In this document: positions 18,091 to 63,949 of the stretch, piece after piece
Layout: every line of letters begins with the position of its first letter
How positions within the stretch are numbered: the first letter of the stretch is position 1
Assembly: GCA_951812525.1 (NCBI GenBank)
Contig: OX638316.1
Span: forward strand, 1,190,506 to 1,254,505
Source of the DNA: an uncultured Poribacteria bacterium
Lineage (GTDB): Bacteria; Poribacteria; WGA-4E; WGA-3G
Length of the DNA stretch: 64,000 nt
Direction of reading: 5' to 3'
Notes under the pieces: generated by a model
What the model saw: only the letters and a program-made list of their open reading frames with translations
The model's database searches: none
What the model was told of the DNA's origin: nothing
Translations under genes and position numbers: made by a program

Positions 18091-18269
18091 ACTTGGGATT
18101 GGAAAATATAGGCAGGTTGTTCGCAATGTATGTTTTATATAAATACAGATCTGTTAGCATCGTAGAAATACGTTAGACCACTGATTCTTAATCCTATTTT
18201 ATTATTAAATAAATATAAATTTTTATTTCTTTCAACGGTCTGATATGATTATATCAACTCGATTGAATG

Positions 18270-20864: not shown

Positions 20865-21298
20865 TTAACTTGATCCTTACGAGCGGGCTTTATATTTCCC
20901 CATGTAGTCGCTAATTTACCTGCCGGGTAAACCGCCAGCGCCGATTTGAGCACTTTTGTCACGAGGATTCCAATATCATCTTCCGTCAACGCGACACTGA
21001 AAAACGCAATTTTGTCAAATTGACCGGAAAAATATTGTCCCCATTGATCTAAAAAATTCGCACCGATACCAATCTCCGTAAAAGTATAGGAATCGGCAAC
21101 CGTGTCACCCTCTTTGCCGTTGTAATAACCCGTCACATTTCCCTCGCCATAAAATACAAAGGCATAGTATCCCCACTTATTATCATCAAATTCTGGGATA
21201 ACGGGTTTCCATGCGCTGCTCCAGACTTCAACCGTCCCATCCTGAAACCGAGTTGTGAAAGCAGGATTCTAGGAGTTGTCTTATGTACCGCAAACTGT
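20849..21298 (-). pseudogene. 5'-truncated LamG-domain protein remnant
   Basis: The frame is open from a stop codon inside the palindrome at 21287-21311 down to the stop at 20849, but there is no plausible start before a GTG at 21136, already inside the domain. Translation gives the C-terminal half of a LamG/concanavalin-like domain (VEVWSSAWKPVIPEFDD, KWGYYAFVFYGEG, GQFDKIAFFSVALTEDDI). It ends in the tail AVYPAGKLATTWGNIK, which is also found at the ends of the secreted proteins at 34365, 58551 and 60097. It overlaps the start of the hydrolase remnant by 16 bp. Most likely a secreted protein gene that lost its 5' part at the palindrome. Confidence 0.72.
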
Positions 21299-26000: not shown

Positions 26001-29000
26001 ATGAACGCATCAAAAATAAGTCGCTATTGGGGATTTGCTATTGCTTTGTTTATGTTAGCTGTCGCGCTCCCGACTGCAAACGCACAAGATCTTTTTCACT
26101 TTAATCTTGGACCCAAACCACCGAACGTAGTGCCAGCGGACTGGCCCACTAGAAACACACGTAATACCCCTCCTCCTGAAGTGTGGATGCCGGATGCAAA
26201 TCTTAGAATGGCGGTTGAAGCCGAGCTTAGAGCCTGTAACCCTCCGCTTACGCTCACACAAGACAATTTAGGAATTTTAAGTTCCATAAGAGCTGATGGC
26301 AAAGACAAAAGTCCAATAACGAATATCACGGGCTTGGAACATGCGACGAGCCTAACATGGTTAGATTTGCAGGAGAATAACATCACTGATATTACTCCAC
26401 TGTCAGGTTTGATGAATTTAACCGAATTAGATTTGGGGTTAAATAACATCACTGATATTAGACTGATAGCAGTGATGGTGAATTTAGATCAATTAAATCT
26501 CGGTGGGAATACGATCAATGATATTAGTGTACTATCGGGTCTGACGAGTTTGACGAGATTAAGTCTCTCTCAAACTGGCATCTCTGATATTAGTGATTTA
26601 GCTCCGTTGACGAGTTTAACAAACTTATATCTCGCGTCGAATTCACTCACTGTAATTGACACGCTATCTAATTTTGGCAGTTTAGAGAGTTTAAGCCTCT
26701 ATCATAATAGAAACGATAATAGCAATGGCGTCTCTGATATTTCCGCTTTAGCCGGGTTGACGAATTTAACCTTCTTACATCTGGGAAGAAATGACATCTC
26801 TGATATTACTGCGCTTTCAAACTTGACGAGTTTAGATCACTTACTTCTCGGTGGGAACAACATTACTGAGATTGACACGCTAGCCAATCTTCCACTTCTG
26901 CTATCGTTAAGCCTTGATTTTAATGACCTCGATGATGATGATCTGACGCACCTATCGGATTTGACGACGCTGGAAGTGTTATCTCTCGGAGCGAATGAAC
27001 TCACTGATATTAGTGATCTTTCCGGGTTGGTAAATATGAGATACTTAGATCTCGCGCCAAATAACCTCTTTGATATTAGTGATCTTTCCGGGTTGGTAAA
27101 TATGACGCATTTAAATATCTCCTCGAATGACATCCCTGATATTACACCGCTTGCCGGTATGGAAAATATGCTGAAGCTATTGCTCTCTGGCAATAGAATC
27201 AATCGTATCATTTCGTTATTGAATATGGAAGTCTTAGAGAAGGTAGATCTCTCTGTAAATCCAGTTGATAACATCTATGCGAATACATATACAGTGGAAA
27301 CCTTACTGTCGAGGGGTACAGAAGTCATTATAGACGACTTAGTGGACACGCCAGACATCGGCTTCAAAGTTCCCCTTGATGTTCATCCCGCATCCCCAGT
27401 GAACGGGACGTTTCAGGTGTTCGCGAAGTTCCAGGGGCCAGTTGTGGGCTTCGACGTGTCAGAATTGGTATTAGCCCCGACGACAATCGCTTCTATCACA
27501 TCCCAAGCGTTCACAATAGAAGAAACAGAAGAGGGTGACTTTACTTATGCAGTGGATGTTACCCCGACGGACAGTGGCGAAGTGACCTTCAGTGTTGCTG
27601 AGCACGTGATGCGAGACGACGCGTATAACCGAAATAAGGCTTCGGATCCGTTGACGGTGGTTATAGATTTGGTTGATCCGGGCGTCAGCTTGGATGTTCC
27701 TTCAGGTATCCAAACCGCTCCGTTTGAGGTGGATGTGGTCTTCGACGAGACGGTCTCAGGCTTTGAAGCAAACGAACTTGTGTTAGACCCGACTACGATT
27801 GCGTTCATTACACCCAATTCGTTGGAAAAAACAGATGATGAAACTAACAATACTACCACCTATACAGTTGAGATTACCCCTGTGGCAGATGGTGATATCA
27901 CCTTCAGCGTTGCTGCGGGTGTGGCGACGGATCTTGCCGGCAACCCAAACACTGCTGCGGCAACGGAAAGGAGGCATCTAAATGTTCCTGAGCCCGAAGT
28001 TAGTATTATTGCTCCCTCAGGGGTCCAGAACGAAGCGTTTACGGTGACGATCACGTTCACGGAAACTGTCTCGGACTTTGTGAGTTCAGACATCGTATTA
28101 GGTGGACTATCTGCTAAGGTCTCGAATCTGGATCCCAATGGAGTAGACGCCAGCAGTTTTATCGCAACGATCACGCCGACCGTCACAACACCTGGAGAGA
28201 TCACGATTGATGTTCCTGCAGATGTGGCAAACAATACTGTTGGCACGCTAAACACTGCTGCGCCGACGCAGACGGTGTCTGTCGATTTACCGCCAGAAGT
28301 CAACCTGACTGTTCTTTCAGATGTTGCGAACGGTCCGTTTCAGGTATCAGTGGTCTTTTCGGAATCGGTCTCAGGATTCGATGAAGGTGAACTTGTGTTA
28401 AGCGGGGATGCCATGGCGTCGAAAACCATGTTTACCCAAGTGGATGCTGCCACGTACACAGCAGAGATTACCCCGATGCTCAGTGGAGAAGTCACAATTA
28501 ACGTTGCTGCAGGGGTCGCAACGGATGACTCCAACCTCGACAATATCGCTGCAGAACCGCTGACTGTGCCTGTGGATTTATTCGTCGAGATCCCTGATCC
28601 TAACCTATTGAGGCGTATCCGTAACACACTCGATTTAGACGTAAACGCCTCTGTTACGGAGAGTGAAATGGCAAGCCTGACATCTATAACTTACACAGCT
28701 AAATATCGCCCAGGGAATCGACGCATCCGTGACCTCACGGGATTGCAGTTCGCGACAAACCTTGAGGAATTATCGCTTCTTCACAATCGGGTCAGTGATC
28801 CCACGCCTATCGTGAATCTCACAAATCTTAGGATTCTGTCGTTTGGGCATAATAAACACATAGACTCAATAAGTTTCGTCGCAAATCTAATCAACTTGGA
28901 GGAGTTATATCTTTGGACAAACAACATTAAGGATATAAGCGGATTGGAAAACTTAACGGTGTTGAGATGCCTGTCTCTCAGACAGAATCCGATTGTTAAT

Positions 29001-31002: not shown

Positions 31003-33639
31003 ATGAAGCACTTTTCTTTCCTTTTTGTTGTGTTATTACTACTCAATAATGCGATTAACTTTACGAGTGCAATACCTGATACAACGGCACCGGACGTGAG
31101 CATTTCTACGCCACCTGGTGTTCAGAACGGAGCATTTGATGTGTCGGTCACCTTCACGGAAATCGTATCAGATTTCGAGCATAACGAACTTGTCTTAACC
31201 GGCACTGCAACAGCGTCAATCACATCCTTCACCACTACAGATAACACCACGTATACGGCTACGATCACACCCACCACTAGTGGCGATGTCACCTTCAACA
31301 TTGCTGCCGGCGTCGCAACTGATGCAGCTAATAACTCAAATATCGCTGCGACAGAAAAAACCGTCTCTGTCTCTGTGGATACAACCGTAGAGATACCAGA
31401 TTCGAATCTTGCTGCAGCACTCCGTAATGCCTTCAGCTTGGATACAGGTACATCTATTACTAAGAGTCAAATGGAAAGTCTGACGACTTTCACTTACAGA
31501 GCAGATCAACTGTCATCTACACGACGCGTCTATGACCTCACCGGTATTGAATATGCGACGAATCTTCAGATGTTGAATCTTCGTGGCAATGCGATCAGTG
31601 ATACCATACCTCTCACGAACCTGCGGCATCTCACGGAATTGATTCTTTCAGGTAATAGAATCAATTCAATAAGTGTGATCAAAGGTCTAACGAACTTACA
31701 GAAGCTGTATCTTACATCCAACTATATCAGTGATATAAGCGGATTGGAAGATCTGACTGCGTTGACGGAACTCCATATTAAGAAGAATCCGATTCTTGAT
31801 ATCGCTGAGAATCGTCAGACGCGTAGTATCCTCGAAACGCGCCCAGGATTAACACTCAAAATTGCCGCATTTCGGATCAACGATAATAGACCCGGCGTTG
31901 AAATATTCGTTCCCACGGGGACCCATAATGCTGCTTTTCAGGTGACGATTTCATTCACGGAAGTCGTATCAGGTTTCGAGGAAGTCGATATTATATTAGG
32001 TGGCGGAGCAACCGCCACGGTTGCGTCGCTTAGCACAACAGATAATATCATCTACACAGCAGAGATTACACCAACAGCAGATGGCAATGTGACACTCAAC
32101 ATCGCTCCGGGGATCGCAACGGATGCAGCTAATAACCCAAATACCGCTGCAACACAAAAAACTGTCACTGTGAATGTACCACCACAGGTCAGTCTCAGTG
32201 TCCCATCAGGGACCCAAGACAGCGCGTTTGACGTATCGGTCATTTTCACAGAAGTAGTATCAGATTTCGAGGAAATCGATCTTGTCTTAAGCGGCTCCGC
32301 AACGGCATCAATCACGTCCTTCACCACCACAGATAATATCACTTATACTGCCACAATCACACCCACAACTGATGGCGATGTTATCTTCAACGTCGCTGCA
32401 GGCGTCGCAACCGATTCTAGAAATAACGCGAATACCGCTGCAACACAAAAAACTGTCACTATCTCGCTGGAGACAACCGACTCGGTGGATATTGTCATAG
32501 AGATACCCGATGCGACGCTTGCATTGATAATTCGTGATAGACTCAGTTTAGGCGCAGAAACAATTATCACCAAGAGTCAAATGGAAAGTCTGACATACAT
32601 CTCGCGCGGTGGTGGGAATTTCAGGAAATCGGAGCGTGTCCGTGATCTCACCGGTCTGGAGTATGCAACGAATCTTCAGTCGTTGAATCTTATATCGCAT
32701 CGGATCACTGATATTACTGTGCTTGAAAAACTAACAAACCTAACCAAGCTGGATATCCGTAACAACATGAGCAGTGATATCACTGTGCTTAAGAATCTAA
32801 CAAACTTAACCCAGTTGAATCTTCGTAAAAATGGCATAACGGATGTAAATGCCTTGGCTGGGTTAACAGGATTAACAAGGTTAAACCTCCGTGGAAATAC
32901 GATTCTCGATACATCACCGCTTTACCCACTCCTTAAATCAAATGGTGGAAATCTGTCGATAGATATAGAGGTATCTGAATATCCACCGTGGGATGTTAAT
33001 AAGGATGGGAGTGTGGATGATGCCGATTCAGCACTCGTCACGGCGGCAATCGGGCAAATGGGAGATAATGTCGCAAATGCTCGCACGGATGTTGATGGCG
33101 ACGGCGATGTTGATGCGGATGACTTACTCCTTGTGACGGATAACATCGCCGAACCTGCTGCTAGCAGTGCCGCACCTTCAGTAAATGGCAATATCCTAAT
33201 CCAGCTTGACGCGGCGGCACTTGAAACATTGGATCGAGATATCCTACAAGCACAACTTTCCATCTTACGTGCCGAAAACAATGGTTCTGCGAAATATCTA
33301 CGAGCAATCGCGTTGATCGAAAACGTTCTGGCAGCGACGCGCCCTGAAAAGACGCAGATTTTGCCAAACTATCCGAATCCGTTCAATCCTGAGACGTGGA
33401 TCCCGTATCACTTGGCAAACGCCAGTAACGTCCAAATCACGATTTATGATGTGCACGGCACAGTCGTTCGTCGTTTGGATCTTGGACATCAACGGGACGG
33501 CTACTACACAAATCGTAGCCGTGCGGCGTATTGGGACGGCAGAAACGCCTTCGGTGAACGCGTCGCAAGCGGTATCTATTTCTATCAACTCGAGGCAGAT
33601 AATCTCTCACTGCTTCGCAAAATGGTAATCTTGAAATAG
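31003..33639 (+). CDS. Secreted Ig-like/LRR/dockerin protein with FlgD-type tail
   Basis: 878 aa; the start ATG is preceded by a strong GGAGGTAAC ribosome binding site. A signal peptide (about residues 1-24) is followed by an Ig-like repeat (VSISTPPGVQNGAFDVSVTF), a cap/LRR block (about 130-285), two more Ig-like repeats (295-490), a second cap/LRR block (500-640), a type I dockerin (DVNKDGSVDDADSALVTAAI, DVDGDGDVDADDLLLVTDNI) and the FlgD/T9SS-like tail. It is a shorter paralogue of the preceding 1606-aa protein with the domains in a different order. No separate sigma-54 promoter was found ahead of it; the 181-bp gap holds a long hairpin and an AT-rich stretch. Likely exported and surface-located. 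Confidence 0.93.
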   Translation: MKHFSFLFVVLLLLNNAINFTSAIPDTTAPDVSISTPPGVQNGAFDVSVTFTEIVSDFEHNELVLTGTATASITSFTTTDNTTYTATITPTTSGDVTFNIAAGVATDAANNSNIAATEKTVSVSVDTTVEIPDSNLAAALRNAFSLDTGTSITKSQMESLTTFTYRADQLSSTRRVYDLTGIEYATNLQMLNLRGNAISDTIPLTNLRHLTELILSGNRINSISVIKGLTNLQKLYLTSNYISDISGLEDLTALTELHIKKNPILDIAENRQTRSILETRPGLTLKIAAFRINDNRPGVEIFVPTGTHNAAFQVTISFTEVVSGFEEVDIILGGGATATVASLSTTDNIIYTAEITPTADGNVTLNIAPGIATDAANNPNTAATQKTVTVNVPPQVSLSVPSGTQDSAFDVSVIFTEVVSDFEEIDLVLSGSATASITSFTTTDNITYTATITPTTDGDVIFNVAAGVATDSRNNANTAATQKTVTISLETTDSVDIVIEIPDATLALIIRDRLSLGAETIITKSQMESLTYISRGGGNFRKSERVRDLTGLEYATNLQSLNLISHRITDITVLEKLTNLTKLDIRNNMSSDITVLKNLTNLTQLNLRKNGITDVNALAGLTGLTRLNLRGNTILDTSPLYPLLKSNGGNLSIDIEVSEYPPWDVNKDGSVDDADSALVTAAIGQMGDNVANARTDVDGDGDVDADDLLLVTDNIAEPAASSAAPSVNGNILIQLDAAALETLDRDILQAQLSILRAENNGSAKYLRAIALIENVLAATRPEKTQILPNYPNPFNPETWIPYHLANASNVQITIYDVHGTVVRRLDLGHQRDGYYTNRSRAAYWDGRNAFGERVASGIYFYQLEADNLSLLRKMVILK
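33367..33629. repeat. 263-bp shared 3' module, copy 2
   Basis: Second copy of the C-terminal module at 30549-30811 (offset 2818 bp), same orientation and frame. Confidence 0.93.
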
Positions 33640-34105: not shown

Positions 34106-34364
34106 AAACCATTTTAATTCTATATTATATATTTTATTATAATGATTTTTTATGACTTCACATTGAGACTTGGATGTTAGAAACCTCGTCTACATGCCCA
34201 CCGCAAAGGATCGGTTTTGGGGGAAAAAATAATAAATTCTGCCTGAAATCCAGGGATCAAATTTCGCCTGATAGCATCATGTTCCCATGAAGAGTCATTA
34301 GGAACAATCCATCGCCTAGAAAGAGAAATTGAGATTTAACTGATTGAAAAGGAGAAAAACTTTA

Positions 34365-36950
34365 GTGTCCGCGAGTCCATTCACTGTTTTCTTAAGAAGT
34401 TTAGCACTACTGATCGTTGTCACCCACTGTTTTCCACAGACATCCACAGCACAGTTTGAGGCACAGAAGTTAATATCCCTACCGCTCGTACCTGCTCCGG
34501 GATTTCTGCCAAATACCTTTATCGTCTATGGTAGATCCGCAGAACCGAGTGTAGCGGAGCCAGACATAGTAGAAGGAGCAGGCATTGAGGGCAAGGTGAA
34601 ATATAAGCAAATAACTGACGATCTACCGGATTTGGAGATGTTTTTTGAATTTGGCGGCACGCTTGAACTCGTGACAACAGATTCCAATCTCAGAAAGCAC
34701 GATATTGCCATCAGCGAAATCATGTGGGGAATAGATACGAGCCACCCTGACGGTGATACCGATACACAATGGATTGAACTCTATATTCGGAATATCAGTC
34801 CCGCAATCACACCTGAACTCCGTTTGCTCTTCACACCTTTTGAGAGCCATCCGCACAGGGAAAAACTTACCTCTTCCGATGTTAATATTGTGCTTCCATC
34901 TGGTAAGGATGTGCGTGTTCTAGACGCGATCAGTAACCTGCACTTAGGAAAATGGAGCTTGCCCGGTAGGAGCGGTAGACGACCATATAGTAATGTTGTC
35001 TCGGCGTATCGGAACATTACTTACCCAGAAGGTGACAACGGCACTCAGGCAGAAATACCTATCCCACCCGGGTCATATAAGGCAAGTTGGAAAGCGACTC
35101 CCGAAGCAGGCAAGAGAAATATGGATATAACATTGCCCTATGTCGCCACACCTGGCAGACGACATGTCCCGACCATGTTCTTTCAGGCACCCTTAAAAAC
35201 ATCCGTCCGTTCAGACCAAATCGTTATTAACGAGGTCCGTAACGATACATCACACTACAACCGCGACTGGGTCGAGTTGAAAAATGTGGGGCGTCTGACA
35301 GTGAACATAGAAGACTGGGAGTTGAGCATCGTGACGGGTGTCAACCAAGACGATGATTTGGTGAATCTGCCGGATTACGAGATGGCACCCGGAGAGATTC
35401 TACTGTTGGCATCCCGTCCTCCGCAGTATACGATGCTTGCGGGCGGTGTTGATATTGAAAATCTTGACGCCCATGGAGCAACACACAAGTATTTTACCGA
35501 CACCCGGCTCAACCTTCCAAACACTGGGAAGTTTCTGCTGCTTCTCAGAAGTCAAGCGGATAAGAACGGAGAAGACGCTGCAATTGCCGATTACGCTGGC
35601 AACGGTTTTTTCACCGATACTTCCCCGGTTTTCAACACCGACTTCTGGCCCCGCAAAGGTCAACAGATTCCCACAGATGTCGCCAATTTCGGAGATCTGA
35701 CTACGTTTGGCTCACTGGATACGGCGTGGGCACGACTCCGGTATCAAAGGAATGATGGGCATCATAAAGACGCATGGGCAGAGGTCGGTATACAAGGCTG
35801 CATCGGTTATGACCCAAATACCGATCTGTCGATTTCTCCAGGCACACCGGGGTATGAGAACACCGCACTCAAAACGCGAATGGAGGACCACAATGCAAGA
35901 ACACCACCGGCTGACGACGAATATCGTGCGGGAACATTGAGCATTAGCGAAATCATGTCGGATGCTGGACCCCGTCGAAACCAAACACAGTGGATTGAAC
36001 TCTATAACAGTTCGCTGACAGAAGCAATCAACCTTGAAGGTTGGGAGTTGGAGATACTCAACCTTCAAGATGATACGTCTATCTACCCCAATGGTCGTCT
36101 GGTTTTCAACGAGGCTATAGTCCTACCCAACCAGACACTCCTGCTTGTTGCTAAGAATGCCCCGAATAACGTGTCGCCTAACCGAATCTATAACATCCAC
36201 AACCAGCATAGGCACGAGTTAAGTGTCTCCAACCCGTGGGTCCTGCTGAATCCAGAAGGCTTCTATCTGAAACTAACGGATGAAGGAGATCCGCAGTTTG
36301 ACAGTGATGATATTGTTGTTGATGAAGTGGGTAACTTGAGTGTAGACGATCGGAACCCGACGCGTTTGTGGAATCTGCCAGTGCCCGACCCGTCGGCGCG
36401 GCGACCACTTGTGCGACAATACGGTGCGCCGTTCAGGTGGAATCAGCGAGACAATGTGCCGGATGCACCGATGCGTGGGAACCAACAAGAAGCGTGGCGA
36501 CAGGTAGGTGCACGACAGGTGGGTGCTACATATTATGGAAATACTAATGACAGAGGCACACCCGGATATCGTTTGGGGAGTCCATTACCCGTCGAACTGT
36601 CCAGTTTTCGTCCGAGTCGCGACAAAGCAAGTGACAAGGTCGTTATTACTTGGAGAACCCAATCAGAGTTGAACAACGCCGGCTTCAATATCCTACGGAG
36701 TAAAAGTAAAAATGGCGAATTCAAAAGAATCAATGCCACCTTAATCCAAGGCGCAGGCACAAGCAGTGAAAAGCACACATATAGCTTCAGAGACACAACA
36801 GCACACCCAAACATTGCCTATTATTACCAGATAGAGGATGTCTCGTTCAGTGGAGTCCGTCGGACATTAGCAACAGTGCGTCTGAAAGGACATATCTCTG
36901 GTGTTGGTAAACTCACAACAACATGGGCAAATACGAAAAAGCAAAAATGA
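34365..36950 (+). CDS. Secreted lamin-tail-domain protein with KLTTTW tail
   Basis: 861 aa from the GTG at 34365, which has AAGGAG at a 10-nt spacing; an in-frame TTG at 34344 would include that site in the coding region and is less likely. A signal peptide runs to about STAQ. Three lamin-tail-like domains are recognisable by their starts: IAISEIMWGIDTS..TQWIELY, IVINEVRNDTSHYNRDWVEL and LSISEIMSDAGPRRNQTQWIEL. Near the C-terminus a fibronectin-like stretch LPVELSSFRPSRDKASDK..TWRTQSELNNAGFNILRS resembles domains that precede type IX sorting signals. The protein ends with GKLTTTWANTKKQK. Lamin-tail domains are found in many secreted bacterial proteins and nucleases; no nuclease motif is seen here. 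It is probably controlled by the sigma-54-type promoter at 34077. Confidence 0.88.
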   Translation: MSASPFTVFLRSLALLIVVTHCFPQTSTAQFEAQKLISLPLVPAPGFLPNTFIVYGRSAEPSVAEPDIVEGAGIEGKVKYKQITDDLPDLEMFFEFGGTLELVTTDSNLRKHDIAISEIMWGIDTSHPDGDTDTQWIELYIRNISPAITPELRLLFTPFESHPHREKLTSSDVNIVLPSGKDVRVLDAISNLHLGKWSLPGRSGRRPYSNVVSAYRNITYPEGDNGTQAEIPIPPGSYKASWKATPEAGKRNMDITLPYVATPGRRHVPTMFFQAPLKTSVRSDQIVINEVRNDTSHYNRDWVELKNVGRLTVNIEDWELSIVTGVNQDDDLVNLPDYEMAPGEILLLASRPPQYTMLAGGVDIENLDAHGATHKYFTDTRLNLPNTGKFLLLLRSQADKNGEDAAIADYAGNGFFTDTSPVFNTDFWPRKGQQIPTDVANFGDLTTFGSLDTAWARLRYQRNDGHHKDAWAEVGIQGCIGYDPNTDLSISPGTPGYENTALKTRMEDHNARTPPADDEYRAGTLSISEIMSDAGPRRNQTQWIELYNSSLTEAINLEGWELEILNLQDDTSIYPNGRLVFNEAIVLPNQTLLLVAKNAPNNVSPNRIYNIHNQHRHELSVSNPWVLLNPEGFYLKLTDEGDPQFDSDDIVVDEVGNLSVDDRNPTRLWNLPVPDPSARRPLVRQYGAPFRWNQRDNVPDAPMRGNQQEAWRQVGARQVGATYYGNTNDRGTPGYRLGSPLPVELSSFRPSRDKASDKVVITWRTQSELNNAGFNILRSKSKNGEFKRINATLIQGAGTSSEKHTYSFRDTTAHPNIAYYYQIEDVSFSGVRRTLATVRLKGHISGVGKLTTTWANTKKQK

Positions 36951-39953: not shown

Positions 39954-40020
39954 TACCGTAAACTGTTAGTTTGCGATAGTTTTGAGGATCGCTTCGTACG
40001 CCACAAACTAACAGTTTGTG
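39954..40020. repeat. Pair of CAAACTG-family palindromes in inverted arrangement
   Basis: Palindrome-like unit TACCGTAAACTGTTAGTTTG (39954-39973) and perfect unit CACAAACT-AAC-AGTTTGTG (40002-40020), 28 bp apart and oriented as inverted repeats of each other. Same family as 21287-21311. Confidence 0.82.
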
Positions 40021-40060
40021 CTACAACCAGAACCCAATAACTTGGTCACATAGGATAACC

Positions 40061-46300: not shown

Positions 46301-47491
46301 CTATTCTCCGATGTGTTGTGCAACGAGTACCAAATCCAAAATGTTTACGATACCATCACTGTTAAGGTCCGGCGAATCCTTCCCAAAACGCGAGACAATA
46401 AAGGTCAAATCTAAGATATCCACAGCACCATCACTGTTAACATCCACTGAGGTCCCCACAGTTTCCAAAGCCCGCACTTCGATTGTGCCATCAAGACTCA
46501 CACTCGCAAGCGTTTTGCCATAATTACCGCGCACATCCAATAGGAACGCCAAAGCAACAACCGGAGCGGTATCACCTTCAAAAATTGCCTCTAACGCTCC
46601 AGTGTGTGGGTGCCAGATATGAATTGCGTTATCCCAACCCGCACTGGCGAGCGTCCTACCATAAACACCTTCGACATCTGGTGAGAATGCTAAAGCAAAG
46701 ACAGGCGCGGTATGATCTTCAAACGTTGTAAGCAGCTGACCGGTGTGCGGACTCCATACAGAAATTGTGCTCTCAGCGTCCGGATTCCAATAGCCACCGC
46801 TGGCTAAAATTTCATTGTCAGGAGAAAAGGCAAGCGTTAGGATTGAACTTGTATGTGCAGAAAGGTTATGTCGGAGCAGACCCGTTTCTACATCCCATAT
46901 CAAAATTGCATCGTAAAAACTGGTGCTGGCAAGGGTCTTGCTGTCCGGTGAGAACGCCAATGTGGTAACCATATCCCGGTGTCCCTGAAGAACTGTAGCA
47001 CGGGATACCACATCCGAGGTTAAGCCCCACAAACGAATCTCTTTGAAACTTCCACTGGCAAGGATGTTACTATCTGATGAGAACTTTAAAGACACGACCG
47101 GATCGGTGTGTCCTATGAAATCTGCCCTGTGTTCACCAGTACGGGTATCCCAGAGACGGACGGTCGCGTCTTCACTTGCACTCGCGATCGTCTGATTATC
47201 AGGTGAGAGTGCTAATGCTGTCACATCAGCCATTAACACAGGAAGCAGCGTTAGTACCTCTCCAGTATAGGTATCGTATAACGCAATGCCATTTCCGCTT
47301 GCGACAGCGAGTTGTGCGCCGTCAGCGGAAAAAGTAAGAGCATTCATTGCTGTTGAACCGAGAGGTACTTCGCCACCTCCAGGCAGGTGCCATCGCGTTA
47401 CATTTTCGGCGAAGCTGCTTGATAGGAACAGAACAGAAATAAATAGAAGTGAAAAGATATGAAATTTTCGTGCCGCTGGTTTATGTCCCAT
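46301..47491 (-). CDS. Secreted WD40-repeat protein with C-terminal dockerin
   Basis: 396 aa from the ATG at 47491, which starts a clear signal peptide (MGHKPAARKFHIFSLLFISV...SSSFA); an upstream ATG at 47554 would put 21 residues before it. About six to seven WD40 repeats follow (ALAFSPDSKTLASTSFYDAI, LWDTRTGEH and variants), forming a beta-propeller. The C-terminus is a type I dockerin with two loops, DVNSDGAVDILDLTFIV and DLNSDGIVNILDLVLVAQHI, ending the protein. Likely a periplasmic or surface propeller with calcium-binding dockerin; the partner is unknown. The stop codon of hslU lies 74 bp upstream of the chosen start. Confidence 0.87.
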   Translation of the reverse strand: MGHKPAARKFHIFSLLFISVLFLSSSFAENVTRWHLPGGGEVPLGSTAMNALTFSADGAQLAVASGNGIALYDTYTGEVLTLLPVLMADVTALALSPDNQTIASASEDATVRLWDTRTGEHRADFIGHTDPVVSLKFSSDSNILASGSFKEIRLWGLTSDVVSRATVLQGHRDMVTTLAFSPDSKTLASTSFYDAILIWDVETGLLRHNLSAHTSSILTLAFSPDNEILASGGYWNPDAESTISVWSPHTGQLLTTFEDHTAPVFALAFSPDVEGVYGRTLASAGWDNAIHIWHPHTGALEAIFEGDTAPVVALAFLLDVRGNYGKTLASVSLDGTIEVRALETVGTSVDVNSDGAVDILDLTFIVSRFGKDSPDLNSDGIVNILDLVLVAQHIGE

Positions 47492-47564
47492 GTGTCCAGT
47501 CAGTAAAGGGATTGCTGATAAAGTCGGACTTTCTCGGCACGAATGACATCTCATTGTTCTGTAT

Positions 47565-56088: not shown

Positions 56089-57624
56089 ATGGACAATACC
56101 ACCATCACCTGTACAATTCTACTTCTCCTTTTTTTCACCATCGACGGCATCTGCCAAACGTCAAAAGGTGCTTCCCTCCACGGTATACTTGTTGATGCCG
56201 AAGATGGACAACCCATCCCCGATGTGCTGGTACGTGCTGCCCCAGAAAAAATCGAAAACGTCTACCCCGATCAAGCGTACGCACACGCAACGGTAACAAA
56301 CGCTGAAGGTACCTTTTCACTCACGATCCCCAACGAACCACAGACCTACTACGCCTTCTCACTCATCGCACTCCATCCAAAATATCAGGCGAAACGCTTA
56401 CGACAGGAGATGTTTCCCAGCAAGGGTCACTATGATTTAGGTGAGGTCCCGCTGAAACGCACCCTATCTTTACAAGGCAATGTCTCTGGCAACAAAGATG
56501 TCCAAGGACTCGTCGTAAACCTAAAGATGCACAATAAACCTAGAGACTTCTTTCGCGCCGCCGCACCGATCGAACACGCAGCAAAGATCGGCGACACAGG
56601 CAATTTCAATTTCTCTGACCTCTACCCAATTGAATACACCTTGACAATTTCCAAAAACGGTGCTATTATAGCGTTTGTGGACGCTATCAACCCACAAGTA
56701 CAAACCCGAATTTCTATCCACCTGCCGAAGTTAAAGACCCTATATGGCGCGGTAGTCGATACGCACGGACATCCGGTAGCAGAAGCACGAATTTATGCAA
56801 CGCGACACAGAGAAACACAGCACGGACACAGCACGCTCCTCACATCAACACAAACAAACAATACAGGCAATTTTCAGATGCAGGTGTTAGAAACCGAACC
56901 TCAACGCCTCTCTCTTGAGGTCAGCAAAAAAGGATATTTTTCCAGAGTCTACGAGAATGTGGAGATCGGAAAGGAACAGCTAATTGTCCCGCTTGAAAAA
57001 GGGCTGGCTATTAAAGGACAAGTTATTCTGCCACGAGACATCTCCTCGGATGCACACTACACTGTGAAAGTCTTTCCGGCAGATACCCAAATGGAATCAA
57101 GTCTCAACCCGTTAGTGTTACATAAACCACTCCTGTCCAGACACTTTTCCGCAACAGCACCTACTTTCATGGTAGACGGACTTTTTTCGGGGACATACAC
57201 GCTCTATATCGTTGGTAGTGGTATATCGGCAGCTGCTATTGATGCGGAAGCATCGGCGAATAGTGAACCGGTCTTTATTGTAGCAGATCGTCCCGGAAGC
57301 ACGTTACAGGGACAAGTGCTCTGGGCAGATACAAGTGAACCCGTGTATAATGCGGTCGTCTCGCGTTCATGGTATCCATGGGAACTGAACCCGTCCGACA
57401 TGTCTATGACGCTCGATCGGTTTGAGGTGGAAACCGACATAAACGGCACATTTAAATTCGACAACCTAACAGAAAATCGCTACCAACTGCATATTCGTGC
57501 TGTCCACGCCGTATTTGACAATGCCACAGAACGTTACCAGCGGACGCTCATTCACAAGCAGGTCAAAATTCCTGCTCCCGGCACCGCATATCACATCTAT
57601 TTAGGAAGACAAGATGCAAGGTAG
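56089..57624 (+). CDS. Secreted protein with carboxypeptidase-regulatory-like repeats
   Basis: 511 aa with a short signal peptide (ITCTILLLLFFTIDGICQ). At least three transthyretin/carboxypeptidase-regulatory-like beta-sandwich domains are suggested by their starts and ends: LHGILVDAEDGQPIPDVLVR...NAEGTFSLTIP, LYGAVVDTHGHPVAEARIYA...NNTGNFQMQV and LQGQVLWADTSEPVYNAVVS...DINGTFKFDNL. Such domains usually occur in secreted or cell-surface proteins as structural modules; no catalytic domain is seen. First of five plus-strand genes; it overlaps the next gene by 11 bp, so the genes are translationally coupled. Confidence 0.8.
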   Translation: MDNTTITCTILLLLFFTIDGICQTSKGASLHGILVDAEDGQPIPDVLVRAAPEKIENVYPDQAYAHATVTNAEGTFSLTIPNEPQTYYAFSLIALHPKYQAKRLRQEMFPSKGHYDLGEVPLKRTLSLQGNVSGNKDVQGLVVNLKMHNKPRDFFRAAAPIEHAAKIGDTGNFNFSDLYPIEYTLTISKNGAIIAFVDAINPQVQTRISIHLPKLKTLYGAVVDTHGHPVAEARIYATRHRETQHGHSTLLTSTQTNNTGNFQMQVLETEPQRLSLEVSKKGYFSRVYENVEIGKEQLIVPLEKGLAIKGQVILPRDISSDAHYTVKVFPADTQMESSLNPLVLHKPLLSRHFSATAPTFMVDGLFSGTYTLYIVGSGISAAAIDAEASANSEPVFIVADRPGSTLQGQVLWADTSEPVYNAVVSRSWYPWELNPSDMSMTLDRFEVETDINGTFKFDNLTENRYQLHIRAVHAVFDNATERYQRTLIHKQVKIPAPGTAYHIYLGRQDAR

Positions 57625-58435
57625 TAGGGTCTTTAGAAAAGCCATACGCGCTTTTCTCTTTCCGCGTGCCGCCAACTTCAATACAATAACACTTACGGCA
57701 ATCTTAATTCTCCAATTGCTCGTTCTCCCTGCAACTGCCGGCTTGCACGGAAGATACACAGACGGGGACAGAATTATTCTCAAGGAGGTGGCTGTCCCTC
57801 AAGTGGCAGGAGACTACTATCGGAGGCCGGGCAAATTCGTAGAATCCGAAGGTGACACCCGCTGGTTTGGACCGGAAATCGACAGTCGCGTGCTCTGTCC
57901 AAATACGACGCACGAATTTAACAAAGCCGGCTTTTTCGATATTATCTATACCAGAGAAGATGCCGAGATCTGGCCCTCCTCAAGACCTGGGAAGGTCTGG
58001 TGGTATCGGCGGCAGAAGTGGCAATTTGCAACCGCTGACACGCCCTGGGGGACAGACACCGTACAGGTCATCCTCGTGTCCGAAATCGGTTGGGAAGGTA
58101 TTGACGCATCGGACACTGTTACCGGGTTTCCATGGAGCGGATTCGAGGAACACTGGCGCAAAGGAGATGCCATCGAATCCAAGGCGGACGTAACAGGTTA
58201 TCACCGACATGAACACGCTGGGAAGAAATACCTCGCACCGAAGTACTATAAAAGCGGCACCCTACGTTACACATGTGCAACCGAGACAGGACAATATAAC
58301 TTGAAGGTCCTGGCATACACCGAAGGACACTTTACAGACCCAGAATTTCGACCCGAACTCAATAAACTTAGCTTCCGTGAAAAAGGAGCGTCGGAAAGTA
58401 CAACGGATTGGTACGACTGCATACCACTGAAATAA
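57614..58435 (+). CDS. Secreted hypothetical protein A1 (WFGPE family)
   Basis: 273 aa. The N-terminus is basic and then hydrophobic (LTAILILQLLVLPATAG), so export is likely. I do not recognise the family. Marks shared with the paralogue at 59342: WFGPE, FDI, PGxVxWYRxQxWxF, DTPWGT, GxPWSGxExHWR and the C-terminal WYDCIxxK. Cysteines at conserved places (RVLCPN, YTCATE, the final DC) may form disulfides. Paired with the downstream gene 58551; this A-B pair is duplicated. Confidence 0.75.
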   Translation: MQGSRVFRKAIRAFLFPRAANFNTITLTAILILQLLVLPATAGLHGRYTDGDRIILKEVAVPQVAGDYYRRPGKFVESEGDTRWFGPEIDSRVLCPNTTHEFNKAGFFDIIYTREDAEIWPSSRPGKVWWYRRQKWQFATADTPWGTDTVQVILVSEIGWEGIDASDTVTGFPWSGFEEHWRKGDAIESKADVTGYHRHEHAGKKYLAPKYYKSGTLRYTCATETGQYNLKVLAYTEGHFTDPEFRPELNKLSFREKGASESTTDWYDCIPLK

Positions 58436-58455
58436 CCCAAGTTCCCATCTTTGTA

Positions 58456-58476
58456 GCACAATCTGTTAGATTGTGC
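58456..58476. repeat. Extragenic palindrome (CAAACTG-related)
   Basis: GCACAATCT-GTT-AGATTGTGC, perfect 9-bp arms, 20 bp after the A1 stop codon; it resembles the units at 40002 and 21287 with T for A in one arm position. A second small hairpin GGTAGG/CCTACC follows at about 58512-58530. Confidence 0.75.
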
Positions 58477-58550
58477 CTGTAGGTGCTGTTTCTAACTGCA
58501 CTGATCGTAACGGTAGGTCTCATGCCTACCCAATACGGAACACCCGCAAT

Positions 58551-59246
58551 ATGATAAACACGGCAAACACCCTAAAAATAATCCTAATCATCTACACATT
58601 CTTCGTCTGGCAGACGGTAGCGGGTGCCGTTATTTGGGAAGACATCTTTGAACAAGAAGCAAAAGACGACTGGCAACACATGGGAAACGACACCATCTGG
58701 AAAGTTGAGGACGGCTTTTTAAAGGCAGAAATTCACGCACAAACGCAGTGGAGCACCGTATTTGAACTTTACCAATTCATCGCCTATCCCGGTCCCTATA
58801 ACGACTTTACAATTACCCTCGAAACGATAGGGGCGACGCAGGCACGGTTTGGTATCGCGCTCGCAAAGCACTTTCTGAACCCCGTCACCAAAATAGAGGA
58901 ATACGGCTACTATCTCTTTTTCACGAACGACATGCAAGCCTCAAGAAACGGCAGCATATTCGTCGGACCCGGCAAGCGATGGAACACGAACGAACTTCAA
59001 CAGATGGCACTGCACTTTGACAGCGGTAGATTCCAACTGCAAGCCGACGGAGAATCACGCATGGACTTTCGAGATGCAAACTTTGACCAGATCGATATCA
59101 TCGCCTTTGTACTCGCCGGATTCGTCACGGAAGAAGTCAACATCGGCAACGCATGGGTGGACACAATCACAATCGACGGACTCGCCGTCTCCCCGAAACG
59201 AAAACTAACAACCACATGGGCAAGTTTAAAACAAGCACAACCCTGA
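58551..59246 (+). CDS. Secreted LamG-like protein B1 with KLTTTW tail
   Basis: 231 aa from the ATG at 58551, which begins a signal peptide (MINTANTLKIILIIYTFFVW...VAGA); an in-frame start at 58473 adds 26 residues and crosses repeats. The body resembles concanavalin-like/DUF1080-type folds (WEDIFEQEAKDDWQHMGN, TIWKVEDGFLKAEI, GRFQLQADGESRMDF). It ends with AVSPKRKLTTTWASLKQAQP. Paralogue of the protein at 60097 (shared WKVEDGFL, YQF.A.P.PY..F.IT, F.DANFD). Possible carbohydrate binding, not proven. Confidence 0.8.
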   Translation: MINTANTLKIILIIYTFFVWQTVAGAVIWEDIFEQEAKDDWQHMGNDTIWKVEDGFLKAEIHAQTQWSTVFELYQFIAYPGPYNDFTITLETIGATQARFGIALAKHFLNPVTKIEEYGYYLFFTNDMQASRNGSIFVGPGKRWNTNELQQMALHFDSGRFQLQADGESRMDFRDANFDQIDIIAFVLAGFVTEEVNIGNAWVDTITIDGLAVSPKRKLTTTWASLKQAQP

Positions 59247-59300
59247 CCATTATCGGTTACAAACTAACAAACTATCTGCCTTAAACAACAACTCTCTTAA

Positions 59301-59326
59301 CTGACAGCTGACAGCTGATAGCTGAC
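59301..59326. repeat. Short tandem CTGACAG-type repeat
   Basis: CTGACAGCTG-ACAGCTGATA-GCTGAC: overlapping CTGA(C/T)AG units just upstream of gene 59342. Related pieces occur near 38641-38670 and 51915-51935. The function is unknown. Confidence 0.7.
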
Positions 59327-59341
59327 AACCATTAAAACCTT

Positions 59342-60085
59342 ATGTTGCGAAAAAATTTAGACCTAATCTTCGACGCATTTCTGCTCGTCCTCGTCCTCGG
59401 CATCGCCTTTTGGAACAGCCACGCCAGAGCGCGCGTGAACCCAGGAGAGCGCGCCAATCCCCCAAGTTCCGGTTCTTACTATAGAACCCCGGGTGTAAAC
59501 GGGATGTGGTTCGGACCCGAACTCAACTCCCTCACCCTCTGCGAAGGCGTTCATAACCCCTTCAACAACAGGGGGCAGTTTGACATCGTAGAAACCATTG
59601 AAAACGCAACGGTCTCCGCTTCAAGAATTCCGGGTGCAGTGCGTTGGTACCGTGGACAGCGGTGGCACTTCAGTACAGACGACACACCGTGGGGCACAAA
59701 TTACTCCTACATCACACTCTACGACGATTTAGGATGGAGTGAGATTAGTGCAGGGAGTGGAACAACCGGATACCCATGGAGCGGCATTGAACGGCACTGG
59801 CGCGATGGGAACATTATCCGCGCACAAGCCTCTGTAGTCGGTTGGCGGCGGTATGCACGCGGCACATCGCAATGGATCTGCCCAATGTATTACAAAATCG
59901 GTGGATGGGAAGGTGAACCCCTTGAGGTTAACTGTAAAACCCTCAGAACATGGTTTCCACCCGACTGGAACGTCCTGAAACAGAAAGACGGAGATTTCGA
60001 TCCGCCAACCGAGCGCGAACCCGGCGTCCTAAGTCGAAGAAGCAAGAAAACACAACTGTGGTACGACTGCATAAAAATCAAATAG
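59342..60085 (+). CDS. Secreted hypothetical protein A2 (WFGPE family)
   Basis: 247 aa. Signal peptide or anchor in LDLIFDAFLLVLVLGIAFW. Clear paralogue of A1: MWFGPELNS, FDIVE, PGAVRWYRGQRWHF, DDTPWGTN, TGYPWSGIERHWRDGN and the C-terminal WYDCIKIK, with cysteines at matching places. Unknown function. It is followed after 11 bp by B2, repeating the A-B order seen at 57614-59246. Confidence 0.78.
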   Translation: MLRKNLDLIFDAFLLVLVLGIAFWNSHARARVNPGERANPPSSGSYYRTPGVNGMWFGPELNSLTLCEGVHNPFNNRGQFDIVETIENATVSASRIPGAVRWYRGQRWHFSTDDTPWGTNYSYITLYDDLGWSEISAGSGTTGYPWSGIERHWRDGNIIRAQASVVGWRRYARGTSQWICPMYYKIGGWEGEPLEVNCKTLRTWFPPDWNVLKQKDGDFDPPTEREPGVLSRRSKKTQLWYDCIKIK

Positions 60086-60096
60086 CAACAGATCTC

Positions 60097-60798
60097 ATGC
60101 GAAACAAAAACACAACCATCCTCATACTCATTTACATCCTCATCACCTGCGCATTCTCGGCATCCGCCGAGACTTGGAATGACGACTTTGACACCGACAA
60201 CCCCGAAGCGTGGAGCAGCATCGGAAACGACGCCATCTGGAAAGTTGAAGATGGATTCTTACGCGTGGAAGTCAAACGCGAATGGGAGGTAGAATATGCA
60301 CTCTACCAATTCACCGCACTACCCGACCCCTATCGAAACTTCGTAATCACAATAAACGACTTCGGCGGCGACAAGACCCGTTTCGGCTTTTGTGTAGGAA
60401 GACACTTCCCCGACACACCCGAAGAAGATCCGTTTTTTTATGTATTCTTCCCCGACGAAATCAGAGCAAGGCGTTTCAACGGCAAAGGGAGCAGCCATCC
60501 GTTCCACGTTCGGCTCTCCAGAGAGCCACGCACCCGCTGGGAAACAGATGTCTTAACAGAAATGAAACTCTACTTTAATTCCGGGCATTTCATCCTATTC
60601 GCAGACGGCGAATTCCGCACAGCATTCCAAGACGCTAACTTTGATAAATTAGAGATCCTCGGCTTCGTTATGGAAGGCATCAACATCGCAAACCAATGGG
60701 TCGGTACTGCATGGGCAGATTCCTTCACCATTTCTGGACTCAACGTCTCCCCAGAGATAAGACTCACCTCAACATGGGGACAACTCAAAACAAGATAA
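60097..60798 (+). CDS. Secreted LamG-like protein B2 with RLTSTW tail
   Basis: 233 aa from the ATG at 60097 with a signal peptide (MRNKNTTILILIYILITC..SASA); longer frames from 59950 overlap gene A2 and are not supported. The body resembles B1: WNDDFDTDNPEAWSSIGN, IWKVEDGFLRVEV, YQFTALPDPYRNFVITI, SGHFILFADGEFRTAF. It ends NVSPEIRLTSTWGQLKTR, the tail motif shared with B1, the lamin-tail protein and the LamG remnant. Last gene of the plus-strand series. Confidence 0.8.
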   Translation: MRNKNTTILILIYILITCAFSASAETWNDDFDTDNPEAWSSIGNDAIWKVEDGFLRVEVKREWEVEYALYQFTALPDPYRNFVITINDFGGDKTRFGFCVGRHFPDTPEEDPFFYVFFPDEIRARRFNGKGSSHPFHVRLSREPRTRWETDVLTEMKLYFNSGHFILFADGEFRTAFQDANFDKLEILGFVMEGINIANQWVGTAWADSFTISGLNVSPEIRLTSTWGQLKTR

Positions 60799-60968: not shown

Positions 60969-61793
60969 TCAACCGCCAAAATTCTGCGCAACAAGCGTCA
61001 AATCCCAGATATTAACCTCACCATCGCCATTCACATCTGCCTCCGGACTTACATCTCCAAAACGAGAAGCCACAAAAACAAGATCCAATATATTAACAAC
61101 ACCGTCACCCGTTACATCATAAGCCAACGCATCTGTGAACAGATTGTAACTCACCAAATTAAAGACTCTCTCCTGATCCGTCTCAACTCTAACGATCCCA
61201 ACGTTCGGTGCCAACCACTGGTAAGAGGTCGAGCGACTTACCCCTAATCTTGAAGTCGTTCTTGACTCAAGCTGAACTTTAAGACAGTTCTCAAACGTGC
61301 CTGCGGGTGTTACCACATCTTCTACTTCGATAACTTCGTAAACACTCGAGAACGTAATCGGACCTGTAAGTATGACCTCTGACGCTAACGTAAACTCCCA
61401 CGAGTCTCCAAGTTCTAACGATGCTGGAAGGAAAAGTGCTGGCGGTGAAAGTACAGCAGTCGCTATACCAAACACTGGACCGAGATCGGCAACAACCCTA
61501 TGAAGTTTTATACCAACCGCATCAACATGCACAAATAAATCCTCACCTGTAGTATCGTCTGTCCCTAAAGTTGCTGCCGTTCTTCTCATTAGCGCGATCT
61601 CTTTACCATCCAAACGTTCCTCAGTAGCCTCAATCGTGTAGGTAGTCCGTTCAGTGCCATCCTCAGTCTCCAACACCCATATATTACCCAAACCCGTCGG
61701 ATAATACTCGACAGCCACTGCGGTTAGAAAAGAGGAAAAATAGAACAGTAAAAACACCAACGCCAGCAAAAAGGGAAGCCCCTTTCCAATCAT
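60969..61793 (-). CDS. Secreted protein with C-terminal dockerin
   Basis: 274 aa. Signal peptide MIGKGLPFLLALVFLLFYFSS...AVA. The middle part is a beta-rich domain of unknown function (YYPTGLGNIWVLETEDG, TTYTIEATEERLDG, VVTPAGTFENCLKVQL, YQWLAPNVGIVRVE), a layout common in bacterial lipoprotein-like surface proteins. The C-terminus is a type I dockerin with DVTGDGVVNILDLVFVASRF and DVNGDGEVNIWDLTLVAQNF, ending the protein just as in the WD40 protein at 46301. Likely exported. The upstream sequence shares a promoter-like element with the methyltransferase gene. Confidence 0.85.
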   Translation of the reverse strand: MIGKGLPFLLALVFLLFYFSSFLTAVAVEYYPTGLGNIWVLETEDGTERTTYTIEATEERLDGKEIALMRRTAATLGTDDTTGEDLFVHVDAVGIKLHRVVADLGPVFGIATAVLSPPALFLPASLELGDSWEFTLASEVILTGPITFSSVYEVIEVEDVVTPAGTFENCLKVQLESRTTSRLGVSRSTSYQWLAPNVGIVRVETDQERVFNLVSYNLFTDALAYDVTGDGVVNILDLVFVASRFGDVSPEADVNGDGEVNIWDLTLVAQNFGG

Positions 61794-62033: not shown

Positions 62034-63752
62034 CTACTTCAACAACTCCATCTGCTGCCCACCAAAATGCCGATTCGACTTCTGACTCGGACGAATCCGC
62101 CACTCCATCGGCAACCGAACAAACGTGTTAATAATCTCTGGATTCTCAAAATACGCATCATCAATCTGCCAGAACTGCAGACGCGGATAATTTCGCCCGT
62201 TATGCTCAAAACTCCCCATATTCTCCGCCTGTTGCCGCATACCCGCGCTGATACGCGCAATCGTGATAAAAATCCCAATCTCCGCGTTGTTCTCATTCAT
62301 AACCTGACAAAAAGCGCGCACCTGCGTAATCGACGGTCTACCGGTCTTAACCTCCGCAAGAATCCGGGTATCTGTCTCTTTCATCTGCTGAGCATTCCAC
62401 AACGTTACATGTCCGACACCATCATGCCCACCGTCGCCGACATCCCGCGTCGGCTTCAATCCAAGCCGTGTCACTGCCCAATTCGAGAAGTCATGATATT
62501 TGCGTTTGTCCCCATCCTTCAAAAGCCTGCGGACCTCCTGCATGTTCGTCGGGTAGCCCTCAATCTGGTAATCCACTGACGGCTTTAACCCGTGCCGATC
62601 CATCAACCGCTGACGCATCGGATCCAGTGCCAGAATAGTTAAATCAATACCAACCCAATTCCTTTTCAGAGTATGCGCCGCATCAATAGTCGTACCACAC
62701 CCACAGAACGGATCCAACACAATGTCCCCTTCATTGCTGGAGGCTTCGATCAGGCGTTCATATAGCGCGAGCGGTTTCTGCGTAGGATAGCCGAGACGTT
62801 CCTTAGACTTGCTTGTAAGAGGATTTATGTCTGTAATAACATCATGAACTCTTCTCCCCCTTGAGGTAGATAAATACCGTTTAAAGCTTGGAACGTTACC
62901 CCTTGGAGGCCAGTAAATTAATCCATTTGCGTCCAATGCATCAAGCTTCTCGTGAACCGAGAGAGACTCATAATTTTCAGGGGGCTCAACGCCGTTGGGC
63001 CACGCCTCTCTGCGTGGTGCCCGCCAGTGGTTCCCCACTACATTCGGATCCACACCACGCCATGGTTTTCCGGATTCGCCTCGCCTAACTCCCGACGCGT
63101 TCAGATTGTCAACTCGGTAGATCCCTTTTTCGTCCTGATGACGGTAAGCCCTCTTTACGTACTCTGGATCGTGTGCTGTATAGATGGGATTCCACACGGT
63201 TTGTTTACTCTTGCTATAGAATAGAATTGTGTCGTGCACCCTACCATATTGCTTACCGTCGTTATGTGCACTGGTGCGTTGCCAGATAATCTCATTCCTA
63301 AAATTCTCCACTCCAAAGACAGCATCCATCACACCCTTGAGATAATGACTCGCAGTCGGGTCACAGTGCAGATAAATACTCCCCTTTTGGGTCAGCACTC
63401 GGTGCATCTCAGCAAGTCGAGGTCCCATAAAAGCAAGATAAGCGCGCATCGCCCCACTATTACCCGATACAGCGCGACGGAGAATTAAATCATATCCCTT
63501 CAGACATTCATCAAGAGCCTTGTAGGTATCGCTGGCATAGGCGTAGTGTTCGATGTCAGAGCGAGCATCCTGCGCAGCAGTATCCCATGTCCACGTATCC
63601 GTAAACGCCTTCTTCTGCGCAAGCGAATCCCCAATGAACGAATTATAATCGCGTCCACTATTGAACGGCGGATCCGTACAAATCAGATCCACCCGCCCAT
63701 CATCCATCTCCCGCAATATCTCAAGGTTATCACCAAAATAAAGCTTGTTCAT
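62034..63752 (-). CDS. DNA methyltransferase fused to PD-(D/E)XK nuclease-like domain
   Basis: 572 aa from the ATG at 63752 (MNKLYFGDNLEILREM, a typical start of site-specific N6A/N4C methyltransferases; upstream alternatives at 63761 and 63791 are weaker). Motif IV is TDPPFNSG (about 26-33), and the AdoMet motif I is DPFCGCGTT (about 345-353), so motif IV precedes motif I as in the beta class; the region between (60-340) holds the target-recognition part. After about residue 400 comes a second domain with DVGDGGHDGVG (about 440) and ILAEVKTG (about 466), matching the D..ExK pattern of Mrr-like PD-(D/E)XK nucleases, followed by QVRAFCQVMNENNAEIGIFIT. No separate restriction gene or specificity subunit is seen nearby, so both activities may be on one chain. 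Confidence 0.87.
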   Translation of the reverse strand: MNKLYFGDNLEILREMDDGRVDLICTDPPFNSGRDYNSFIGDSLAQKKAFTDTWTWDTAAQDARSDIEHYAYASDTYKALDECLKGYDLILRRAVSGNSGAMRAYLAFMGPRLAEMHRVLTQKGSIYLHCDPTASHYLKGVMDAVFGVENFRNEIIWQRTSAHNDGKQYGRVHDTILFYSKSKQTVWNPIYTAHDPEYVKRAYRHQDEKGIYRVDNLNASGVRRGESGKPWRGVDPNVVGNHWRAPRREAWPNGVEPPENYESLSVHEKLDALDANGLIYWPPRGNVPSFKRYLSTSRGRRVHDVITDINPLTSKSKERLGYPTQKPLALYERLIEASSNEGDIVLDPFCGCGTTIDAAHTLKRNWVGIDLTILALDPMRQRLMDRHGLKPSVDYQIEGYPTNMQEVRRLLKDGDKRKYHDFSNWAVTRLGLKPTRDVGDGGHDGVGHVTLWNAQQMKETDTRILAEVKTGRPSITQVRAFCQVMNENNAEIGIFITIARISAGMRQQAENMGSFEHNGRNYPRLQFWQIDDAYFENPEIINTFVRLPMEWRIRPSQKSNRHFGGQQMELLK

Positions 63753-63949
63753 GGTTCTCATACGTTCTATGAAGGCTAATATATTTCCCAATAATCGCGC
63801 TTCTCGCGCTTAGCGCGTAGGTTAGGTTGAACGGGATATGAAAAATCACTTCCATTCACCACAAAAATCTTCAAATTCCCATGCCACTTGAAATCCCCGA
63901 AACCCAAGTGAAACCCAACATTCTATCTATCAACTGATGTTATATAATC

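Follow-up and report, generated by a model that had tools for sequence, protein, structure and literature searches.

Short signals of the LPXTG and PEP-CTERM type, which lie near the stop codon, are common to many exported proteins. The type IX sorting domain type A (TIGR04183, Por_Secre_tail), a domain of 72 positions, is likewise a conserved C-terminal module carried by unrelated proteins exported by means of a signal peptide, and type I dockerins, which are characterized by calcium-loop repeats, end exported proteins and may attach them to a partner. Type IX-like domains have been described in Poribacteria by Kamke et al. 2014 (PMC3909097), in which Por structural genes were not found and the route of secretion of the proteins bearing such ends was left open. 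The present analysis concerns a 64,000-nucleotide stretch (the window; contig OX638316.1, positions 1,190,506 to 1,254,505) of the genome of an uncultured Poribacteria bacterium, which consists of a single contig of 5.06 Mb, and in particular a locus at which the listing of open reading frames (ORFs) has four frames open on the same strand in the order A1-B1-A2-B2, the order that had been proposed in the initial annotation. Both B proteins end in a tail of approximately 18 residues which, judged by sequence, is a phylum-specific C-terminal module present on at least 150 ORFs of the source genome. On balance we favour the interpretation that this is a conserved locus for exported proteins in which the tail of B serves as a previously undescribed sorting or docking tag, likely directing B to the cell surface, with A as its untagged partner.

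The tail has the consensus V-[ED]-[PA]-x-x-K-L-[AT]-T-T-W-[GA]-x-[LI]-K and stands just before the stop codon. A KLTTTW tail had initially been assigned to B1 and B2 alike; both ends do fit one tail pattern, but KLTTTW itself is present in B1 only, B2 having RLTSTWGQLK. A degenerate DNA pattern for K-[LF]-[AT]-x-T-W matched the genome at 47 sites as compared to 3 for the reversed pattern, and 46 of the 47 frames stop 5-18 residues past the tryptophan (one of these being a 14-codon chance frame), the remaining site, with its stop 47 residues on, probably not representing a tail. Conserved residues that had not been requested by the pattern flank the matches, namely V at -5 (39/42), G/A at +6 (40), L/I at +8 (39) and K at +9 (41), and the presence of 42 distinct 18-mers at the pattern sites disfavours a DNA-level repeat. 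A tail profile built from 78 of 112 collected tails gave at least 150 matches in the genome, the worst with an E of 2.5e-4; this figure is a lower bound because scoring covered 150 of the 233 candidates, and the list of profile matches does not include the tail of B2 itself. Most of the 112 tails are net basic, and LPxTG, PEP or a 15-residue stretch of mean hydropathy >=1.6, indicative of a transmembrane segment, was found in none of them. The V and W columns of this collection carry no evidence since the collection rule demanded both residues.

The proteins that carry the tail are diverse and for the most part appear to be exported. A signal peptide-like hydrophobic start was observed in 37 of the 44 testable tail frames (3 of the 47 were untestable). 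The criterion was a rough rule based on hydropathy and not a dedicated predictor of signal peptides, and many genes of the window that lack the tail pass it as well. Of the seven frames without such a start, four begin outside the retrieved stretch (for one of these the complete gene in the window, 34344-36950, does show a signal-like start), a fifth is the site whose stop lies 47 residues on, a sixth comprises 93 codons and the seventh is unexplained. When 43 tail proteins were trimmed of 30 N-terminal and 22 C-terminal residues they fell into 15 unrelated clusters, the largest with 22 members, and Pfam analysis of 42 tail proteins returned LamG_3 for 23, 3-keto-disaccharide hydrolase for 3, Lamin Tail Domain for 3, F5/F8 C for 2 and CBM_4_9 for 1. 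Weak Pfam matches of three tail proteins to a clostridial neurotoxin receptor-binding domain, and one Foldseek row of this type, were ascribed to a common lectin-like fold, and a toxin reading was discarded. Counted from the side of the fold, 93 of the 97 LamG_3 proteins in the genome are tailed (25 with the exact motif and 68 with variants accepted by a loose rule), and of the four that remain, the first ends in the manner of a type IX domain where the others have the tail, a second carries KLPTRWGRVK and has a longer end, and the last two show neither.

To assess the distribution of the tail, a strict 30-base pattern (K-[LF]-[AT]-T-T-W-[GA]-x-[LIMVF]-K) was applied to 386 genomes, a sample comprising one genome per species. 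It was present in 82 of the 84 genomes of the phylum, with 2699 matches altogether (the two without a match being G071 and G075), and in none of the 302 genomes outside it, and the reversed control gave no match in any of the 386. A looser pattern, counted across 97 genomes, agreed with this distribution, the 14 non-phylum genomes being at background with 5 matches as compared to 5 for the control. Searches of open-licence full texts for Poribacteria C-terminal or sorting signals, LamG and tail motifs did not retrieve the tail in print, and the available portions of PMC3909097, PMC8546597 and PMC5087111 contain nothing on it. A further paper, retrieved for Poribacteria and type IX secretion, mentions type IX with regard to Bacteroidetes only.

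The predicted model of B2 (mean pLDDT 84.6, 59-row alignment) is a jelly roll, with structure matches covering residues 22-218 to GH16 enzymes and other concanavalin-like folds (Foldseek E 1e-7; VIA Z 15.4 with an rmsd of 3.1 over 165 residues, for 3d6e_A and 4jqt_A, with GH16 enzymes throughout the list), and neither B1 nor B2 matched a Pfam family, LamG_3 (PF13385) included, up to E 1. B shares the predicted GH16/concanavalin-like fold, but the catalytic motif ExDxE or ExDxxE was found by regular expression in just one of 59 B proteins, at residue 31 and thus away from the expected position on the catalytic strand; B was therefore not assigned as a GH16 enzyme and is probably a binding or structural module. 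In the alignment of the 59 B sequences W227 is invariant and K231 is conserved in at least 90%, and the tail was present on all 59 B proteins under a loose rule as compared to none of 49 A proteins under a tighter one. That most tail carriers are LamG_3 or other jelly-roll proteins, and most LamG_3 proteins are tailed, is what would be expected if the tail were just the final strand of the LamG/jelly-roll fold, inherited with it and devoid of a function of its own. This explanation appears very improbable, as the tail also closes Lamin Tail, F5/F8 C and CBM_4_9 proteins and is spread over the 15 unrelated clusters, as one LamG_3 protein bears a type IX-like end in its place, as the strict pattern does not occur in the 302 genomes of other phyla, and as the B2 tail (approximately residues 219-233) lies, albeit at low confidence, beyond the last jelly-roll strand in the model.

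To determine how A and B are paired, one set of 97 genomes was searched with both A2 and B2. The A query gave a match in 56 genomes and the B query in 57; 56 genomes have both genes, one (G070) has B without A, none has A without B and 40 have neither. G015 and G019, of the same genus and 78% and 91% complete, lack both. An A profile detected A in 57 of the 84 phylum genomes, of which 56 are among the 58 genomes of the window's family and one is among the 26 others. Leaving aside copies that are A1-type or distant, A2 is present at more than 70% identity in 52 of the 57 family genomes. All 51 loci retrieved with family A derive from Candidatus or uncultured Poribacteria, and gene order was counted in the 50 from which an A or B gene of 70 residues or more was obtained. 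In these, 62 of 64 A genes are followed by a B gene on the same strand within 1500 bp, mostly within 200, and the two that are not (L162 and L178) lie less than 700 bases from a contig end. The most common order is B-A-B (24 loci), followed by A-B-A-B (14 loci), and a homologue of the carboxypeptidase-regulatory-repeat gene that precedes A1 in the window is present in 47 of the 50 (L130-L179). The usual unit is accordingly B1-A2-B2 after this repeat gene, A1 often being missing. The retained pairing suggested by the initial annotation is thereby upheld when A-type genes beside B-type genes are sought in other genomes; independent occurrence, which would have spoken against it, was not observed for A and is observed in part for B, which has extra copies away from A and retains B1 without A1, and for these reasons a description as two cassettes each requiring both parts is too strong.

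The same B copies without a nearby A, together with the 24 B-A-B loci and the conservation of the remaining parts of the locus, would also fit a history in which A and B owe their adjacency to descent alone, through an old tandem duplication within a conserved locus and without any partnership. We consider this unlikely, given that A never occurs without B in the 97 genomes and that the two family genomes without A also lack B, and given that G072, which belongs to another family, has two A-B groups with rhodanese, MauE and DUF1573 genes located between them.

A sorting or docking tag is the best explanation of the tail, as it is too short for a domain, free of transmembrane segments, mostly basic and located on exported proteins. 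According to the interpretation that we favour, B would exit the cytoplasm by way of its signal peptide and fold as a non-catalytic concanavalin/GH16-type jelly roll with the tail outside the fold, and the tail, being common to at least 150 ORFs, would deliver or hold B and many lectin-type proteins at one extracytoplasmic place, most likely the cell surface; A would be a cysteine-containing partner without a tag, encoded together with B and possibly in contact with it. The initial annotation had B tagged for the cell surface, and of this the tail is substantiated as a genome-wide, phylum-specific C-terminal module, the surface location and a joint action of A and B being inferred. Several points weigh against this interpretation. 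To our knowledge no receptor or processing enzyme is known for the tail, and the model of B2 assigns it low confidence only. An amphipathic helix is not supported by the periodicity of the tail, the observed moment at 100 degrees being reached by 39% of residue orders (strand-like periodicity at 160 degrees was reached by 1.35%, five angles having been tried). In addition, A-B co-occurrence falls largely within one family and is thus not independent evidence genome by genome, and several genomes have additional B copies away from A.

The comparison with described modules allows the kind of tag to be considered further. LPXTG and PEP-CTERM signals resemble the tail as short C-terminal signals on numerous exported proteins, and type IX sorting domains as conserved ends of unrelated ones, but TIGR04183 is a much longer domain and was absent from all 42 tail proteins at E 0.01. 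A dockerin-like arrangement, in which the tail would be only a docking peptide for a shared scaffold and play no role in crossing or outer-membrane sorting, is suggested by a tail that is short, soluble (no transmembrane stretch in 112), and conserved on many lectin-type exported proteins, and by the dockerin-like repeats with which the source genome already ends exported-looking proteins at 60969-61793 (minus strand; Dockerin_1 E 3.1e-8) and, as judged by eye, 46301-47554 (minus strand). The tail is much shorter than type I dockerins and has none of their calcium-loop repeats, no many-site scaffold is known in this case, and the very different proteins encoded by at least 150 ORFs fit a general route at least equally well; docking alone is hence somewhat unlikely.

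Returning to a tag of the sorting or docking kind, the genome also carries 73 TIGR04183 matches, and a type IX-like end (VASGIYFYQLE...LLRKM) is present on three large exported-looking proteins of the window (9673-18126, minus; 26001-30821, plus; 31003-33639, plus). Tail, type IX-like and dockerin-like ends together represent at least three kinds of C-terminal module on the exported proteins of this genome. Distant similarity to SprA was detected in 60 of 60 phylum genomes, mostly in one ORF of approximately 2200 amino acids, and exceeded the family cut-off in one of them; in the source genome this ORF specifies 2248 amino acids (L248:574-7320, minus strand; G000:C1:1483008-1486355), matches SprA_N with an E of 1.8e-4, below the cut-off, and gave no SprA match when compared to the PDB by phmmer. 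We advance tentatively, as a possibility short of probable, that Poribacteria possess a dedicated and as yet undescribed pathway which would recognize the tag, of approximately 18 residues and free of transmembrane segments, on the products of at least 150 ORFs of one genome and send this mostly lectin-type cargo to, or fix it on, the surface, beside a separate type IX-like pathway, with A-B as one conserved cargo set. Should the tail prove to be a signal for sorting or docking, sequence alone would suffice to mark much of what a widespread, uncultured symbiont of sponges exports, and the tail would offer a handle for finding its receptor; the second C-terminal module and the candidate distant SprA homologue make questions of secretion testable. 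The A-B cassette alone is of modest interest, which the tail raises.

The A proteins could not be assigned to a family. Neither Pfam nor NCBIfam gave a match, and comparison with PDB sequences returned nothing below E 1.2. The predicted model of A2 (mean pLDDT 82, 49-row alignment) has a helix at residues 2-27 followed by a beta-rich domain, and Foldseek returned no match at E 0.001. The top VIA match is weak (Z 3.1, rmsd 6.0 over 100 residues), and readings of A as a fluorescent-protein barrel, to which this score relates, or as a VtrA/VtrC complex component (Z 2.7) were too weak for use. The initial annotation had likewise not recognized the family and had called for a prediction of its fold with the cysteines; the model points to an exported, cysteine-containing, beta-rich protein without a recognized relative or a clear counterpart in the PDB. 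Three cysteines are invariant in the 49-row alignment of family A.

The motifs listed initially as shared between copies are confirmed, WFGPE, DTPWGT, PWSGxExHWR and WYDCI being common to A1 and A2 (42% identical) and WKVEDGFL and YQF to B1 and B2 (43% identical). Genome-wide, the A query retrieved only itself and its partner copy (E 8.6e-46), as did the B query (E 6.6e-53), in both cases far beyond chance. The longest direct DNA repeats within the window are just 40-44 nucleotides at 73-86% identity, which indicates that the duplication is old and recognizable at the protein level. Phylogenetically, B1 and B2 separate into two sister clades, each of which extends through the family, whereas A1 is restricted to a part of a single genus and groups beside A2 with weak support (82/66). 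Duplication of the cassette as one unit that was then kept whole fits in part only, owing to this limited occurrence of A1. The best fit is an ancient duplication after which A1 was lost in places, although A1 may instead have arisen later. Two intact cassettes are thus present in the source genome but are not general.

Of the 50 retrieved loci, 16 encode a rhodanese-type protein, 15 a MauE-type membrane protein and 14 a DUF1573 protein, and such genes adjoin the A-B cassette in another family as well (L063:1853-3791, and loci such as L163:6469-7469); the window contains no homologue of these neighbours. MauE acts in disulfide formation during the maturation of methylamine dehydrogenase. This role and the three invariant cysteines of A make a disulfide-related link between A and these neighbours possible, as far as sequence can suggest it.

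The features of the locus and the other tail-bearing frames of the window are listed below. The start of B1 was taken as the ATG at 58551, the mechanical ORF beginning at a GTG at 58473, and the 3' end of the repeat gene shares 11 nucleotides with the A1 frame.

Table 1. Coordinates of the A-B locus and of other tail-bearing frames within the window
Feature	Position	Strand	Basis
Predicted exported protein with carboxypeptidase-regulatory-like (transthyretin-like) repeats	56089..57624	+	Pfam CarboxypepD_reg E 5.7e-27
A1, predicted exported, family unrecognized	57614..58435	+	ORF; 42% identity to A2; no Pfam or NCBIfam match
B1, predicted jelly-roll protein with C-terminal tail	58551..59246	+	ORF; 43% identity to B2
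B1 tail, from V of VSPKRKLTTTWASLK through last residue	59187..59243	+	Exact pattern site G000:C1:1249707-1249724
A2, copy of A kept family-wide; predicted N-terminal hydrophobic helix and beta-rich domain, conserved cysteines	59342..60085	+	
B2, predicted jelly-roll protein with C-terminal tail	60097..60798	+	Predicted model, concanavalin/GH16-type fold
B2 tail VSPEIRLTSTWGQLKTR, variant missed by exact pattern	60745..60795	+	Sequence
Lamin Tail Domain protein ending in tail KLTTTWANTKKQK	34344..36950	+	Same module, protein unrelated to B
Tail closing short LamG-type frame	20882..20950	-	Pattern site and tail-profile match G000:C1:1211387-1211455; LamG_3 match adjacent

A perfect 21-nucleotide palindromic element, GCACAATCTGTTAGATTGTGC, is located between A1 and B1 at 58456-58476, and one looser copy of it occurs at 40001-40021, none being expected by chance. 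Directly downstream of the A-B locus, on the minus strand at 62034-63791, lies a gene for a DNA methylase (N6_N4_Mtase) with a C-terminal part resembling Mrr-type restriction proteins.

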